In this document: positions 14,250 through 59,394 of the stretch, in pieces
Numbering within the stretch: position 1 is the first letter of the stretch
Layout of the letters: the number at the start of each line of letters is the position of its first letter
Source: Lysobacteraceae bacterium
GTDB lineage: Bacteria; Pseudomonadota; Gammaproteobacteria; Xanthomonadales; Xanthomonadaceae
Direction: 5' to 3'
Assembly: GCA_030681035.1 (NCBI GenBank)
Contig: JAUXUI010000010.1
Coordinates: 1-64,000 of the forward strand
DNA length: 64,000 nt
Translations under genes and position numbers: made by a program
Notes under the pieces: model-generated
The model's input: only the letters and a program-made list of their open reading frames with translations
The model's database searches: none
Told to the model about the DNA's origin: nothing

Positions 14250-14599
14250 GGGCTATTGGCTCGGTCCGAAATCAGCCGCGTATTGTGCCTGAACGGGAAA
14301 GCGCGCGGGCGGGGTGGTGTTACGTGCTTGTCGGTGCATTCAGCAATCGGCTGGCCTGTCACTTGCGGCGCAACGCGATGTGGCCCGTGCTGCGCAGGCT
14401 GTCGCAAGTGTTCGCATCCATGATCGCGCCGCTGGTCAGTTGTTTCGCAACAACGCATCGCATAGCGTTGCTACGCCTTCGTTTCGCTCGGCCTGCCTGA
14501 CGGCAGGTCGCCCACAGGGTGGGCTCCTACAGTGGAGCGCTGATTTATGTAGGAGCCCACCCTGTGGGCGACCGAGCGGGTCAAGTACCGTGCGCTGCA
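14250..14599. other. Intergenic stretch with a paired palindromic repeat and no gene
   Basis: This stretch lies between the 5' end of pldA and the 3' end of the exporter gene. It contains the inverted repeat listed at 14507-14572. No reading frame here has family features. Confidence 0.6.
14507..14572. repeat. Inverted pair of dispersed repeat family A
   Basis: Two 24-base arms, 14507-14530 (GTCGCCCACAGGGTGGGCTC and four more bases) and 14549-14572, are exact reverse complements separated by 18 bases. The same arms occur at 23202-23271 and, degenerated, at 58915-59224. This is a REP/BIME-like element that could act as an mRNA stabiliser or terminator just past the exporter gene. Confidence 0.9.
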
Positions 14600-26032: not shown

Positions 26033-26051
26033 AAGCCGGGGCTCGGCGATT

Positions 26052-26154
26052 GATGGGTTTCGCTGCGCTCTACCCATCCTACGGGTCTTGCTTCTTGCTT
26101 TGGCTTTTCCGAGTCCCCAGTCCGTAGTATGGGTAGAGCGCAGCGAAACCCATC
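26052..26154. repeat. Large inverted repeat (family B) between guaB and guaA
   Basis: Arms 26052-26084 and 26122-26154 are 33 bases each and reverse complements with two mismatches, separated by 37 bases. The same unit occurs singly at 1564-1595. In the guaBA transcript it would form a long hairpin that could attenuate, or protect from exonucleases, one side of the operon. Confidence 0.9.
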
Positions 26155-26177
26155 GCTCACGAAAGTACCCAGCCCCG

Positions 26178-27743
26178 ATGAAAAACATCCACCGCGACAA
26201 AATCCTCATCCTCGACTTTGGTGCGCAGTACACGCAGTTGATTGCGCGGCGTATCCGCGAGATCGGTGTCTATTGCGAAATCTGGGCCTGGGATCACGAC
26301 CCGGCCGAAATTGCGGCATTTGGCGCCAAAGGCATCGTGCTTTCCGGCGGGCCGGAATCGACCACGCTGCACGGCGCGCCGCGTGCAGCGCAGGCGGTGT
26401 TTGATTCAGGTCTGCCAATTCTCGGCATTTGCTACGGCATGCAGACCCTGGCTGTGCAGTTGGGCGGCAGCACCGAGGCTGCCGATCAACGCGAGTTTGG
26501 CCATGCGCAGGTCGATCGGATTGCCGAGGATCGTCTGCTTGGTGGCCTGTCCGATCACCCCGGGCAATCGCGCCTGGATGTGTGGATGAGCCACGGCGAT
26601 CACGTTGCCAGCGCACCGCCCGGTTTCGTGGTGACGGCGCGCACTGAGCGCATCCCGGTAGCGGCGATGGCCGATGATGCGCGGCGCTGGTACGGCGTGC
26701 AGTTCCATCCCGAAGTTACCCACACCAAACAGGGCGAGGCACTGCTGCGCCGGTTCGTGGTCGATATTTGCGGCTGCGGCACCTTGTGGACCGCAGCGCA
26801 CATCATCGAAGACCAGATCGCACGCGTCCATGCGCTGATCGGCGAGGGCGATGTGCTGCTGGGTTTGTCCGGCGGTGTCGATTCCTCGGTGGTGGCGGCG
26901 TTGCTGCATCGCGCGCTCGGCGAGCGCCTGACCTGCGTGTTTGTCGATACCGGCCTGCTGCGCTGGCAGGAAGGCGATCAGGTGATGGCTACCTTCGCCG
27001 AGCATCTCGGTGTGAAGGTGATACGCGTTGATGCCGCCGATCGCTATTTTACGGCGCTGGCCGGGGTCACTGATCCCGAAGCCAAGCGCAAGATCATCGG
27101 CCGCCTGTTTGTGGAAATCTTCGATGAGCAGGCCAGCAAGCTGCACAACGTGAAGTGGCTGGCGCAGGGCACCATCTATCCCGATGTGATTGAGTCGGCC
27201 GGCAGCAAGACCGGCAAGGCGCATGTGATCAAGAGCCACCACAATGTGGGCGGTCTGCCCGAGCACATGAAGCTCGGCCTGGTGGAACCGCTGCGCGAGC
27301 TGTTCAAGGATGAAGTGCGGCGTATCGGCGTTGAACTCGGCCTGCCGCGCGAGATGGTCTACCGCCACCCGTTCCCCGGCCCCGGTCTGGGCGTGCGCAT
27401 CCTCGGCGAAGTAAAGCGCGAATATGCGCAACTGCTGGCCCGCGCCGACGCCATCTTCATCGATGAACTGCGCAAGTCCGGCTGGTACGACAAGACCAGC
27501 CAGGCTTTCGCGGTGTTCCTGCCGGTGAAATCGGTGGGCGTGGTTGGCGACGCGCGCGCTTACGAATGGGTGATAGCGCTGCGTGCAGTGGAAACCATCG
27601 ACTTCATGACCGCGCATTGGGCACACCTGCCGTACGAGTTGCTTGGCAAGGTATCGAATCGCATTATCAATGAGTTACGCGGTGTTTCTCGCGTAGTTTA
27701 TGACATCTCCGGCAAGCCGCCGGCGACGATTGAGTGGGAGTGA
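26178..27743 (+). CDS. guaA: GMP synthase (glutamine-hydrolysing)
   Basis: A 521-residue enzyme converting XMP to GMP. The class I glutaminase triad is Cys85 in GICYGMQ and His177/Glu179 in [10 protein letters not shown]. The ATP-pyrophosphatase P-loop is [16 protein letters not shown], and the dimerisation domain ends [12 protein letters not shown] 26178 is chosen for the family N-terminus. The frame runs open upstream into guaB, which is chance. The 3' end of guaA is a known genomic-island integration site, and here it borders an accessory defence islet. Confidence 0.98.
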
Positions 27744-27978
27744 GGCTGGATTTTTCGGGTGTATTGAAAAAGAGGCTGACAACCAGCCAACCGGTCTCGT
27801 CATCTGTGTCATGTTATCGCTCAGCCTCGTCTCCAGCCGACTGTGCCAGCCAAGACCGTGTTGAAGTGCTTCTTGCTTTGTCAGGCTCCAGAAATGCGGC
27901 AAGAGCGTGTTTACCGTGGCGCATCAATGCCACGCCGACTTGAGTTGCTCGGACGTTGGCAGCGCCTTGGATTGCCGC

Positions 27979-28821
27979 TCAAACGTCGATCCTCGGCAAG
28001 TTGGCAGCGCGAACAGCACGCGCCACCTCGCGGAATGCATCATCAAATGGTGGTAGTTCGCTCATTTGGTGTGCGAGACGATTGGCCCAGAGTCGCCGCA
28101 GACGCTCTTCTTTGGCGGCAATAGCCTGCTCCATGCCTGCAATGACGCGCTGCCGCAGTGCCAGCTTGGCATCAAGTTCGGCGCGCATCTCAGCAATGCG
28201 CAATTCAGTGGAACCGAACAGATACCAGAGGTCATACAAGTCGCGCGGTTCGTTGCGGGCGCGGTCGCTCAAGGCCAGCAGCTTTTCAACCACGATCTCC
28301 TCGATGGCATAGACCTTCACAGTCGGGCCTTCGGGCAAGTCGTCAAAGCTGTCGTAGATGCGCTGAATTGGGCGATCTTGCAGTGGGAAGCACAGGACTT
28401 CGTTGATCGTGATATCCACCTTCACGTCGTTCGCGGCAGGTAGTGGCCCCTGATAGCGCAGGTAGAAGGTGTGGCTGTTCTGGTGGCCGTGCCGGTCTTC
28501 GCGATCGAACGCGATCCGCAGGCCCGAGTCGGCTTCGACGGTCGCGAAGATTTCGTCCAACCCCGCCAGGATATCTTCGAAGGTGATTGGACGGGTCAGT
28601 GTGAAGTCCAGGTCCTCCGAAAACCGATAGTCTTCGAACCAGCAGCGCCGCAGGGCGGTGCCACCCTTGAAGGCCAGCACGTCGCGCAGCGGATGGCCGG
28701 CCAAGCCGGTCAGGAACCAGGCCAACACGTAATCGCGTTCGATGACGGCCTCGGGGATACGCCGTCCGCCAGCGGTCATCAGCGTGTTCGAGATCAGGGA
28801 AATGTTGCGTTGAGGAATCAT
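27979..28821 (-). CDS. AbiEii/AbiGii-type nucleotidyltransferase toxin
   Basis: A 280-residue protein of the AbiEii (MNT-like, DUF1814) family. The nucleotidyltransferase signature is complete: FKGGTALRR followed by FSEDLDFT (GG-T and SxDxD), then a metal-binding Asp in KVDITINEVL. C-terminal helices with EKLLALSDRARNEPRDLYDL match the family motif. Type IV toxin-antitoxin toxins of this family transfer nucleotides (to tRNA acceptor ends in the related MenT enzymes) and stop growth during phage infection. The ATG shares one base with the stop of the upstream antitoxin gene, giving coupled expression. Confidence 0.92.
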   Translation of the reverse strand: MIPQRNISLISNTLMTAGGRRIPEAVIERDYVLAWFLTGLAGHPLRDVLAFKGGTALRRCWFEDYRFSEDLDFTLTRPITFEDILAGLDEIFATVEADSGLRIAFDREDRHGHQNSHTFYLRYQGPLPAANDVKVDITINEVLCFPLQDRPIQRIYDSFDDLPEGPTVKVYAIEEIVVEKLLALSDRARNEPRDLYDLWYLFGSTELRIAEMRAELDAKLALRQRVIAGMEQAIAAKEERLRRLWANRLAHQMSELPPFDDAFREVARAVRAANLPRIDV

Positions 28822-29657
28822 CAGCCAAGCCTCACGGCATCGAGTTCTTCGGGCGTCACATTGAGCTGGAGGCGCCAGCGTGAGATGAAAGCACCCTCGG
28901 CGGGGAGCAACGGATCGAGGCGCTGGTAGGTCGCCGTCAGCATGCCGCGCAAGGGCACCAGCGCCGATGCATCGGCGATACCATAGTGTTCCAGCAGGTA
29001 GCCGAGGCGACGTACCACGGCACCGACGCCGAGCCGTCGTGCGTAGTCCACCAGCCGTTCGGTCTTCAGTGAATCACGCTTAATCCACAAGCCCTTGGCG
29101 ACTTCGGTGATGCCACCGGCAAATGCCGGATGGCGGAGTCCATCGATGATGGTGCGCTCCATGTCGCTGATCATCACGAAGCGCTCCTTGTCGATCCAGT
29201 GCTTCATGACACCGAATTCCTGTTCCGCAGTGATGTGAATAAACCGAAAGTCATAGCCGCCGATCGTCTGTGGACGCACGCGCCGCGTGCATGACACATA
29301 GACGGTGAAGTTCGGCTGCGTCACCATGCGATGTAGTTCAAGCGCGGTGCCATGCGACAGGAAGTAGGGCGCGGTACCGGCGAGTTCACGCGCGATCAGG
29401 TATGGGCTGTCGATGTGCTCAGTGGCCCGGCCAAGCTCGAACGGCACGAGGTTGTACAGGCCGGGCTTCAGTCGTGTCACCAAGCCGCGTTGCTGGGCCT
29501 TGTGTACGAGATTGCGGGCCGATGCCGCCGACAGGCCGGTGATCGAGCCTACATCCGCCAAGGTGAACGTAGAGCGGCGCAGCTCATTTAGCTCCGTGAA
29601 GAGTTGCGCTGCTCGCGGGCCCAGCGTCTTCGTTTGCAAGTGATATTTTGCGCTCAA
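28821..29657 (-). CDS. AbiEi-type antitoxin and autorepressor
   Basis: A 278-residue protein. The N-terminal winged helix (FTLADVGSITGLSAASARNL) and KPGLYNLVPFELG are followed by the AbiEi antitoxin domain (YFLSHGTALELHRM, ISDMERTIIDGLRHP). AbiEi neutralises AbiEii and represses its own promoter by binding DNA repeats. The start is TTG at 29657: AGGGG lies 8 bases before it and no ATG or GTG occurs nearby, so translation may be kept low. The stop overlaps abiEii. A consensus-like promoter flanked by direct repeats lies just upstream. Confidence 0.9.
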   Translation of the reverse strand: MSAKYHLQTKTLGPRAAQLFTELNELRRSTFTLADVGSITGLSAASARNLVHKAQQRGLVTRLKPGLYNLVPFELGRATEHIDSPYLIARELAGTAPYFLSHGTALELHRMVTQPNFTVYVSCTRRVRPQTIGGYDFRFIHITAEQEFGVMKHWIDKERFVMISDMERTIIDGLRHPAFAGGITEVAKGLWIKRDSLKTERLVDYARRLGVGAVVRRLGYLLEHYGIADASALVPLRGMLTATYQRLDPLLPAEGAFISRWRLQLNVTPEELDAVRLG

Positions 29658-29673
29658 TTTGCGCCCCTATAAG

Positions 29674-29719
29674 AAACGTACTGCGCGGTAAATATAATAC
29701 AAACGATACTCAGCGGCAA
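29674..29719 (-). promoter_or_regulatory. Probable abiE promoter with direct-repeat operator
   Basis: On the minus strand TTGCCG (29719-29714) and TATATT (29696-29691) are separated by 17 bases, 34 bases before the TTG start. Two related sequences, AAACGTACTGCGCGG (29674-29688) and AAACGATACTCAGCGG (29701-29716), flank the -10 box with a 27-base period. AbiEi proteins bind repeats in their own promoters, so these are the likely operators. Confidence 0.55.
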
Positions 29720-29817
29720 GTTCGTATCCTTCTGGGAGACGAATAGAGCGTAAAACGTAACAATGAAAACTCAAAGGCGAAAGTCGCCACAAGTTGCGCA
29801 AAAAAAGGGAGTGCTCG

Positions 29818-30198
29818 ATGACGGTCAGTGTCCACAATCCAGACCAGTACATGGCCAGTCTGCGGCAGATCATTGCCCAGGGACGCAAGCGGATCGGCCT
29901 TCTGGTCGGGGCGGGCGCGCCAGCCAGCATCTTTCCTCCTGGTAGCGACAAGCCGCTGATCCCTGCGGTTGCAGGCCTCACCGACATGGTGACGGAAGCG
30001 CTGAAAGCCGACTACGGCAACACCTTGGACGCCGTACGGGCTGAGCTTGACACCCCGAACATCGAAACGATCCTGTCGCGGGTGCGCAGCTTGGCCGGCG
30101 TCATTGGCAAGACGAAGGTCCATGACCTCGATGGGGAGGGGTACAAGAAGCTGAGCGACGCGAGGCAACGCTACCGTTCAACGGATCGCATCGGCTGA
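29818..30198 (+). pseudogene. 5' fragment of a SIR2-like defence gene
   Basis: A 126-codon frame whose first about 115 residues read as the start of a SIR2-family NAD-binding domain: RKRIGLLVGAGAPASIFPPG (the GAG nucleotide loop), then PLIPAVAGLTDMV. Intact SIR2 defence proteins are several hundred residues long. Here the frame ends after KKLSDARQRYRSTDRIG and the conserved chromosome resumes within 35 bases, so the catalytic Asn/His region is gone. The ATG has GGGAG upstream. SIR2 proteins deplete NAD during phage infection; this copy cannot. It is divergent from the abiE pair. Confidence 0.7.
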
Positions 30199-30231
30199 CG
30201 CGATCAGGCCTGCGGCGATCTGGCTTGCGGC

Positions 30232-31260
30232 TTACAAATCCTGCTGATAACGCACGTATGGAGTGCGTCCCTTGGGCTCATCGGGCAGGCCGATTTCACC
30301 AAGGCCGATATTGCTATCGCCACCGGACAGGATGTTGTCGGCGCCGATGCTGAGGCGGCCGCTCCACGGCGTGAGCCAGGAAACACCGATATCGACACCT
30401 TGCCAACGCAGTCCGTTGTCTGACTGCATGCTATGGCCCGTTACCGCACCACTGAAAGCGCCGTAGCCGCCACCAAGGGTGACCGCACTACGCGTCCAAT
30501 CACCACTGCGGAACAAGGTGTTGGTATTGGCAATCAAGCGTGCCCGAGCAACCGAGCCGCCAATCGAAAGCCAGCCCTGTTCGCCCAGTGGCAGGTAGGC
30601 TTGGCCACCGACATCGATTTGGTCAAGCGTGAGGCCACTCAGGTAACCATTGAGCAGCGGCCGGTTCCACCACACGTTGTTGCTGTTGGCGGCGCCACCC
30701 AGAATTGTATAACCGCGCGGTGCGGCACCCAGCACGGCACGGCTGAGGATTTGCCGTTGCGCACCGATGCCGAGGTCAACCCGAACCGGGCCGCTATCGA
30801 ATGCGACGTTGGCGCGCAGCGTCGGGCTATAACGGGCCAGTGGATCGGGGTGCTGATCCAGCGAGGCAAGCAGGCAATGCTGGCTCAGGCCACCCAGTGA
30901 ATTGATCAGGCTGGCTGGGCCATCGCACAGCACGGCCAGATTGTTGCCCGGTTCCAGGCGTACGTTGCCGCGTAAACGGTTCAGGTATTGGCCGTCGGAA
31001 GCGAGCAGTCGCGAGCCTGTGATAACTGAGCGCGATAGCGGGGTGGGTAGCAGATTCAGGCCATTTGCCGTCTGCATGTTCGCCGGTTCGACCAACAAAA
31101 ATGCCTCGAACTTGCCGGTTTCACGATTGAGCACGGGCAGCAGTGTGGTTTCCACTGCTTGTTCGGGTTGGGTAGTGGCTGGCCATTTCAGCGGAACTTG
31201 CGCGTGCGCCATGCTCGCCGCGAGGGCGAACAGCAGGCTGATGGCAAGACGGCGGATCAT
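30232..31260 (-). CDS. Exported beta-rich protein, probable outer-membrane barrel
   Basis: A 342-residue protein with a clear signal peptide (IRRLAISLLFALAASMAHA). The rest is rich in alternating strands and Gly/aromatic residues (WLSIGGSVARARLIAN, AVTLGGGYGAFSGAVTG, GRLSIGADNILSG), ending in a strand-like tail (TPYVRYQQDL). This suggests an outer-membrane beta-barrel, but I recognise no named family. ATG 31260 is placed at the signal peptide; upstream codons lack support. It appears to be the conserved flank of the guaA-linked islet. Confidence 0.6.
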   Translation of the reverse strand: MIRRLAISLLFALAASMAHAQVPLKWPATTQPEQAVETTLLPVLNRETGKFEAFLLVEPANMQTANGLNLLPTPLSRSVITGSRLLASDGQYLNRLRGNVRLEPGNNLAVLCDGPASLINSLGGLSQHCLLASLDQHPDPLARYSPTLRANVAFDSGPVRVDLGIGAQRQILSRAVLGAAPRGYTILGGAANSNNVWWNRPLLNGYLSGLTLDQIDVGGQAYLPLGEQGWLSIGGSVARARLIANTNTLFRSGDWTRSAVTLGGGYGAFSGAVTGHSMQSDNGLRWQGVDIGVSWLTPWSGRLSIGADNILSGGDSNIGLGEIGLPDEPKGRTPYVRYQQDL

Positions 31261-31479
31261 GGCAATGCGTTGTCCAAATGCTTGAAATTGTGGAAACCGG
31301 CGATTTTGCCACTCGATGCTTGGACCCGAAGCTTGGACCCGAAGCCGCCCCAAGGGTTCAAACATACTGTGCAGAGCATAGCACGGCGCGCGCTTTGTCG
31401 CTGCTTAAACCGCTGTTCTGGGACGGAATATACGGTCTGTTCCGCGAATTTCAAGGACTGCAATCAAATTGATACCAAA

Positions 31480-42270: not shown

Positions 42271-42725
42271 AACAGGTTGAAATTCATACCGATGGCGCAT
42301 GCCTCGGCAATCCGGGGCCCGGTGGTTGGGGCGTGTTGCTGCGCTGCGATGGCCGCGAGCGCGAGTTGAGTGGCAATGAGCCAGACACCACCAACAACCG
42401 CATGGAACTGATGGCGGCGATCAAGGCGCTGGAAGCGCTGAGCACACCGTGTGCTGCGGTATTGCATACCGACTCACAATACGTGCAAAAAGGATTCACT
42501 GAATGGCTGGCGGGTTGGCAGCGGCGTGGCTGGAAGACCGCTGCAGGCGAGCCGGTAAAGAACAAGGACCTGTGGCAACGGCTCAGTGCTGCTGCGGCGC
42601 CGCACACGGTGCAGTGGCAGTGGGTGCGCGGTCATAACGGCCATCCGGAAAACGAGCGGGTAGACGAGCTGGCGCGTGCTGCAGCGGAGCAATTGCGGCC
42701 AGTAGCCAGGAGTGGTGGGCGATGA
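42267..42725 (+). CDS. rnhA: Ribonuclease HI
   Basis: A 152-residue RNase H-fold enzyme that removes RNA from RNA-DNA hybrids. Active-site acids are visible: Asp in [18 protein letters not shown], Glu in [14 protein letters not shown], Asp in LHTDSQYV and the final Asp in [21 protein letters not shown] and [12 protein letters not shown] match the handle and His loop. It overlaps both neighbours by ATGA. Confidence 0.97.
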
Positions 42726-58761: not shown

Positions 58762-59394
58762 TTTGATTCCCCTAATTCCGGTAACGGCCGTCCCCAATCG
58801 CAGCTCGCCACGGCCCCAGCCGGCTGCGTTGCCGGTGCGCTGCACCGACGATCACCTGCAATGTAGCGCGGCGCGCAGCGCACGGGAAGATGCTGCCTGC
58901 TGTGCTCGTGCGTGTGCAGGAGCCCGATGTGGGCGGTCGGCATGTACTTCGGTTGGAAAATTACCATCGCGCACAGGGTGCGCCCCTACAAAAAATCGTG
59001 ATCTGCCCCTGTAGGAGCCCGGTGCGGGCGACCGGCATGTACCTCGGTTGGAAAATTACGGTCGCGCACAGGGTGCGCTCCTACAAAAAAACGGTGCTCT
59101 ACCCCTGTAGGAGCCCGGTGCGGGCGACCGGCATGTACCTCGGTTGGAAAATTACCGTCGCGCACAGGGTGCGCTCCTACAAAAAATCGTGATCTGCCCC
59201 TGTAGGAGCCCACCCTGTGGGCGACAGATGCCATGTGCGCAGCATGTGCCTGGTCGCGCACAGAGCCGGCCCCAGGCTTGATCTGACAGCGCTTCCACAG
59301 GAACCCTTCGGCTTAACGTGGTGAGGAGCTTTGCGCGCTGGCGCGCTGCCAGCGGTGTGTACACTGAGCACCCGGGTAACCGTATGGGCTGGCA
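58762..59394. other. Intergenic stretch dominated by palindromic repeats
   Basis: No gene is supported here. The central part is the tandem array listed separately. The stretch should carry the promoters of the divergent receptor and alpha/beta hydrolase genes, but no convincing -35/-10 pair stands out. Confidence 0.6.
58915..59224. repeat. Tandem array of about 95-bp palindromic units (family A related)
   Basis: Units start at 58915, 59010 and 59106, with a last partial copy from 59201. Each begins TGTAGGAGCCCGGTGCGGGC and ends with a near reverse complement (CGCACAGGGTGCGCTCCTAC), so each is a hairpin. The final copy (59201-59224) reads TGTAGGAGCCCACCCTGTGG, the family A arm found at 14507 and 23202. 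It is not a CRISPR: the inter-arm sequence is repeated too. Confidence 0.9.

Follow-up and report, generated by a model that had tools for sequence, protein, structure and literature searches.

Probable remnant of a mobile defense island, with an AbiE toxin-antitoxin pair and a truncated SIR2 gene, at the 3' end of guaA in an uncultured Lysobacteraceae lineage

The 2.5 kb that follow guaA in this Lysobacteraceae genome are probably (at roughly 0.7) the remnant of a mobile defense island inserted at the 3' end of that gene. The window, meaning the entire 64,000-nucleotide stretch analyzed, is contig 47 of a 3.64 Mb draft genome in 144 contigs, one of four genomes compared in its genus (the others are G001, G002, and G003, the last being the closest relative). 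A preliminary description had noted an AbiEi/AbiEii pair and a truncated SIR2 gene after guaA, which PADLOC profiles confirm, as does Pfam for the pair, and had read the region as a shrunken island in which the toxin-antitoxin pair was kept while its neighbors decayed. Variable cargo and att repeats at the same place in relatives support that reading. Since the window contains no integrase and no integrase arms, it is described here as a remnant at the guaA site rather than as "an island."

Table 1 Features of the insert and its borders (positions in the window)
Feature	Position	Strand	Basis or remark
guaA 3' end, GATTGAGTGGGAGTGA	27728-27743	+	Holds GAGTGGGA; the one integration-core copy left
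Stretch unaligned to G003	27744-30237		Stands in place of 8.7 kb in G003 and 10.6 kb in G002; alignment ends
abiEii, nucleotidyltransferase toxin, full length	27979-28821	-	PADLOC, Pfam, motif patterns
abiEi, antitoxin and repressor, full length	28821-29657	-	PADLOC, Pfam; stop overlaps abiEii start
Gap between abiEi and SIR2, richer in A+T (45% GC)	29658-29817		Weak evidence
Truncated SIR2 gene, 126 aa	29818-30198	+	Homology to about 30159, then a few out-of-family codons to the stop
Deletion-junction stretch, no att copy	30160-30237		Alignment and att search
XOO1806-like envelope gene right of the insert	30232-31365	-	NCBIfam XOO1806 family, 202.3 bits, below the cut-off of 280

The alignment to G003 covers positions 17027-60260 as eight blocks separated by short gaps, at 92.5% to 96.2% identity in six blocks, 89.7% in the guaA block, and 86.6% in the last. 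The window is collinear with G003 on both flanks of the insert; the alignment halts at 27743, the last base of guaA, and restarts at 30238. The insert starts at the core in the guaA 3' end. On the right, SIR2 homology stops at residue 114, near base 30159, and the junction must therefore fall within 30160-30237, a correction to the preliminary description. Low GC, a possible mark of an island, was not seen, since the insert (59.2%) is close to its flanks (62.3% and 60.5%). The last kilobase of guaA is 86.9% identical to G003, lower than most other kilobases; windows of 150 bases gave no clear breakpoint, and a 3' part of guaA acquired by recombination from a foreign source is thus not claimed.

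AbiEi (PADLOC PDLC02267, E 8.4e-90, profile positions 2-250 of 252; Pfam AbiEi_4, 27.8 bits, cut-off 25) and AbiEii (PADLOC PDLC02304, E 8.3e-86, positions 1-257 of 260; Pfam PF08843, 146.7 bits, cut-off 22.5) are encoded in that order in an overlapping two-gene operon, both at full length, and NCBIfam assigned no family to either. A pattern search found toxin motifs I-IV in AbiEii (GG-x15-DLD at residue 53, KLLALSDR at 180, and RDLYD at 193), with Leu at the aromatic position of motif III. In AbiE systems, AbiEi represses the operon and neutralizes AbiEii, a GTP-binding nucleotidyltransferase that arrests growth (PMC3985639). The pair has in common with these type IV systems the overlapping stop and start, the nucleotidyltransferase motifs, and the winged-helix antitoxin family, and differs in that it is known here from sequence and that promoter inverted repeats were not convincingly found (PMC3985639): the gap upstream of abiEi holds one 9-bp inverted repeat with a mismatch and a single promoter-like match toward abiEi, against 0.7 expected by chance.

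AbiEi is rare in the family, being found in 2 of 297 genomes (E 1e-20, own genome included). The other carrier is G167, whose AbiEi is 79% identical and whose AbiE pair, the nearest in the family, adjoins a QatABCD set (L200:2505-9283). Between the two genomes the AbiE genes have dN of 0.129 and 0.141, with dS saturated and 1.81, respectively. Hence selection maintained the pair through most of the interval since these copies and those of G167 diverged, which does not prove present-day function of the window's copy. The operon probably still works. An integrative and conjugative element (ICE) stabilized by AbiE has been described (PMC11062541). Plasmid relatives of AbiEi were found in 48 of 72,556 records (best 66%), and AbiEii had no match in phage records at E 1e-5. 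Contig 143 of the same genome has a 199-base piece that is 83% identical to AbiEii (L014:3877-4075), in surroundings that by eye resemble a region with another small toxin-antitoxin pair; beyond this piece, comparison of the 2.5 kb with the fetched loci gave matches of 22 to 45 bases only.

The SIR2 gene retains about 114 SIR2 codons and points toward the missing right flank. It matches PADLOC PDLC04094 (E 1.1e-39) over profile positions 2-113 of 399 only, and PDB 8w9l (381 aa) at E 1.5e-9, with no Pfam or NCBIfam family. Among the 297 family genomes the piece is matched in three, own genome included (E 1e-8); the other two, G064 and G123, encode full SIR2 proteins of 405 and 395 aa, each followed by HerA (PDLC04105, E 4.2e-159 and 4.5e-149). 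PDLC04094 is the best model for the stump and for both intact homologues, and the stump is of the HerA-linked kind. No HerA is present between 27744 and 30237. The SIR2 protein of the published SIR2-HerA anti-phage system has a conserved catalytic Asn-Tyr-Asp and His (PMC11263360); matching TNYD and KLHGS motifs, seen by eye in the G123 protein, lie beyond the portion kept here. Thus, in comparison with that system, the window holds the first ~110 SIR2 residues and lacks the rest of SIR2, including these catalytic residues, and all of HerA (PMC11263360). The stump is a remnant and not a member of a SIR2-HerA system. In G123, which belongs to another genus, the intact SIR2-HerA genes lie 0.3-3.3 kb after guaA (L057:1295-4257), and a search of 18.9 kb that allowed up to 4 mismatches in 18 bases gave no second copy of the guaA end.

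The content after guaA differs among all four genomes of the genus. In G003 the 8.7 kb at this place encode an ABC-3C CTD12 protein, a DUF2326 protein, an unmatched ORF, a DNA methylase, and an Abi_C protein. The 10.6 kb of G002 encode an MmeI-type enzyme, an AAA ATPase (best PADLOC model NsnB), a helicase-like protein (weak), a T5orf172 protein, a truncated PDC-S06 ATPase, and two ORFs read by eye as PIN toxins. In G001, where a contig break splits the site, a VapBC pair (by eye) accompanies pieces common to G002. The cargo of the three relatives is largely of the defense type, and G001 and G002 also carry broken genes. As a neighbor of guaA, the envelope gene is confined to this genus: of the 104 stretches compared it was found in three, those of the window, G003, and G002; that of G001 is on another contig.

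This variability bears on whether the AbiE and SIR2 genes could be ancestral chromosomal genes of the lineage. The same genes in the same order in all relatives would have spoken for ancestry, as the preliminary description had pointed out, and none of the three relatives has them at this site, for which reason an ancestral segment was rejected. The near-flank GC of the insert would suit such an origin; the scarcity of both the AbiEi and the SIR2 homologues in the family argues against it, and we consider it very improbable.

Repeats of the guaA end are present in the relatives. The sequence GATCGAGTGGGAGTGA recurs in G002 10.45 kb after guaA, ahead of the envelope gene; G001 has a second copy with one base changed, beside its envelope gene, and the second copy in G003 is two bases shorter. 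No second copy exists in the window, at the far end of the insert or elsewhere, as the preliminary description had judged by eye: the lone other match, at 42364(+), has 3 mismatches, and shuffled sequences gave 1.41 matches on average. A degenerate attR in 30150-30236 was considered and discarded, being no better than shuffles (p 0.84), and homology of the junction gap to the relatives' flanks was not significant (p 0.26 for G001, 0.13 for G002, and 0.12 for G003). In G002 and G003, attR is separated from the envelope gene by a shared flank of about 190 bp. This flank, with its attR, is missing in the window, which fits the earlier proposal that the right boundary was deleted.

Two surveys place these copies in a wider context. 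The first covered 104 stretches after guaA with lengths from 0.5 to 18.9 kb, namely the window, three loci of the genus, and 100 of the family. A second copy of the last 18 bases occurs with 1 mismatch in two (G002 and G085), with 2 mismatches in one, with 3 in two, and with 4 in eight; the remaining 91 have none at up to 4 mismatches. A 15-base guaA-end pattern is present in two copies in 18 of the 297 family genomes, whereas the reversed control pattern gave no two-copy genomes among the matches listed. Both copies lie on one contig and strand within 100 kb in 12 of the 18.

Nine of these 12 genomes have a Phage_integrase domain starting 910-923 bp past the guaA end; no Phage_integrase match lies between the copies in the other three (G002, G085, and G165). 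The guaA integrases form two groups, 88% to 96% and 78% to 91% identical within and 56% to 61% between. One of them, searched against the 297 genomes at E 1e-60, gave 27 matches, 24 at ≥57% identity and three at about 40% to 51%; in 19 of the 24, those with listed positions, the match starts 278-306 bp after a guaA-end sequence. At the same threshold no guaA-type integrase was found in the four genus genomes, own one included. Among the fetched integrase loci, two of these integrases matched full-length proteins at 34% to 36% identity in G000 and G003, an 88-residue piece in G001, and nothing in G002. The att repeat that the preliminary description had wanted sought is thus present in G002 and G001 and shortened in G003, and the integrase it had also named is present in other genera; the window has neither a second copy nor an integrase.

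Traces of integrase arms are graded in the same genomes. Against the integrase-bearing G133, the right arm matches at 80 of 95 bases in G002 and 79 of 95 in G001; against G169, also integrase-bearing, the counts are 70 and 73 of 95. Compared with the same integrase group, the right arm of G003 is weaker (z 4.2-6.8) and its left arm is clear (z 5.0-12.8). The left arm of G002 is weak (z up to 4.7), and that of G001 gives nothing (z up to 2.7). No arm is recognizable on either side in the window (z no higher than 2.2 on the left; on the right, where the 95 bases before the envelope-gene stop were taken, an arbitrary choice since attR is gone, z no higher than 2.6). Because arm matches are present to varying degree in the relatives and absent from the window, the genus displays a series of decay at the guaA site with the window at its end.

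Two-copy inserts that contain no integrase domain (3 of 12) also mean that an integrase need not have been part of this insert. It could instead have been an integrase-less, att-bounded defense cassette whose movement relied on an integrase supplied in trans by another guaA island, in line with the three genomes that keep both core copies with no Phage_integrase match between them and with the GIsul2 integrase, which excises and integrates a CR2-sul2 unit (PMC9376610). We find this doubtful: a complete island that simply lost its integrase gene would look no different, G001 and G002 also contain broken genes, and the window has no attR. Just as speculative is the broader proposal that the genus guaA site holds integrase-free, att-bounded defense cassettes that are exchanged as units and mobilized in trans by integrases that passing guaA islands bring with them; the cassette in the window would have lost its right end and become fixed.

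Several side observations concern other guaA loci in the family. The two integrase groups (G133, G169, G224, and others versus G270, G286, G294, and G237) have the same core and different arms. The G085 insert (L052:1000-6494), 5.5 kb flanked by two copies of the guaA end, has no integrase match, has arms of the second group, and encodes a 1063-aa protein that by eye is like a restriction-modification enzyme. G224 (L175 near 13001) and G165 (L178 near 8118), which belong to two genera, have an identical right copy, with the 95 bases before it and the 60 after. Since the bases after this copy resemble a left arm, the two inserts may be tandem islands.

If the 2.5 kb are an island remnant, a guaA-specific tyrosine integrase would have recombined the last guaA bases (core GAGTGGGA) with an identical sequence carried by the element; guaA would have stayed whole, and the insert would have been bounded by two core copies. 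The integrase, both arms, and the right-hand core copy would have been lost later. A deletion that starts at about SIR2 codon 114 and reaches close to the stop codon of the adjoining core gene could account both for the shortened SIR2 gene and for the lack of HerA, attR, and the flank, given that the stump runs toward the missing flank; all losses may thus trace to this single event, and HerA may once have been present in the insert. The AbiE operon, left of the deletion, would have been spared, and its survival would fit a use in abortive infection or self-maintenance. Entry of the AbiE/SIR2 cargo by the integrase is suggested by its position, as the window keeps no recognizable att arm. Set against the island-remnant reading are the absence of an arm and a second core copy in the window and of a guaA-type integrase in the genome, the near-flank GC, and the draft state of the assembly. 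Further, the sequence GGCTTACA at the envelope-gene stop is by eye closer to G001 than to the nearer G003, a resemblance not accounted for by one simple deletion in an ancestor like G003.

The missing arm, attR, and integrase would equally suit arrival of the AbiE genes and the SIR2 piece by homologous or illegitimate recombination without an integrase, either as a cargo swap in an older guaA island or directly, and in G123 SIR2-HerA adjoins guaA with no second guaA-end copy in reach. This route is unlikely, if somewhat less so than movement in trans: the left border coincides exactly with the end of the att core, and core copies are present at the site in all three relatives. The exact border itself would be expected in any case, because guaA must stay whole.

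The guaA 3' end is a published island site with core GAGTGGGA, used by GIsul2 and others (PMC9376610, PMC5704250), and an Agrobacterium tumefaciens ICE sits in guaA (PMC9373382); together with the family integrases, this bears out its earlier designation as an established integration site. As far as these sources describe them, GIsul2-type islands have the same site and core as the window, which differs in lacking an integrase and a second core copy and in having defense-type cargo only (PMC9376610, PMC5704250). In Stenotrophomonas maltophilia, defense island #13 lies between guaA and pgrR (PMC11680222); it resembles the window in its varied defense genes directly after guaA and differs in its right-hand gene (PMC11680222). 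A CIME is an element without integration and transfer genes in which attL and attR are kept (PMC5704250). The window is like a CIME in having no integrase, but it is not one because attR is missing too; G002 is nearer to the definition (PMC5704250). The use of guaA as an island site and as a defense-island flank is thus already in print, and the window adds an ordinary, well documented example. No paper on this genus at the guaA site was found in the open-licence literature.

These results link the turnover of defense genes in an uncultured lineage to an island site already in the literature (guaA, GAGTGGGA). They also set out a series at one site, from integrase-bearing islands in other genera, through inserts with two cores and no integrase match (G002, G085, and G165), to the window, which has neither. 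If integrase-less inserts move in trans, defense genes could spread without machinery of their own; otherwise, the locus cleanly illustrates how an island decays while its toxin-antitoxin pair outlasts the neighboring genes.

Two repeat features were seen elsewhere in the window. An inverted-repeat element lies just upstream of guaA (26039-26163), with a second near 1558-1599. A tandem repeat with a period near 96 bases occupies 58912-59339, is absent from G003, and has pieces near 14507 and 23202.
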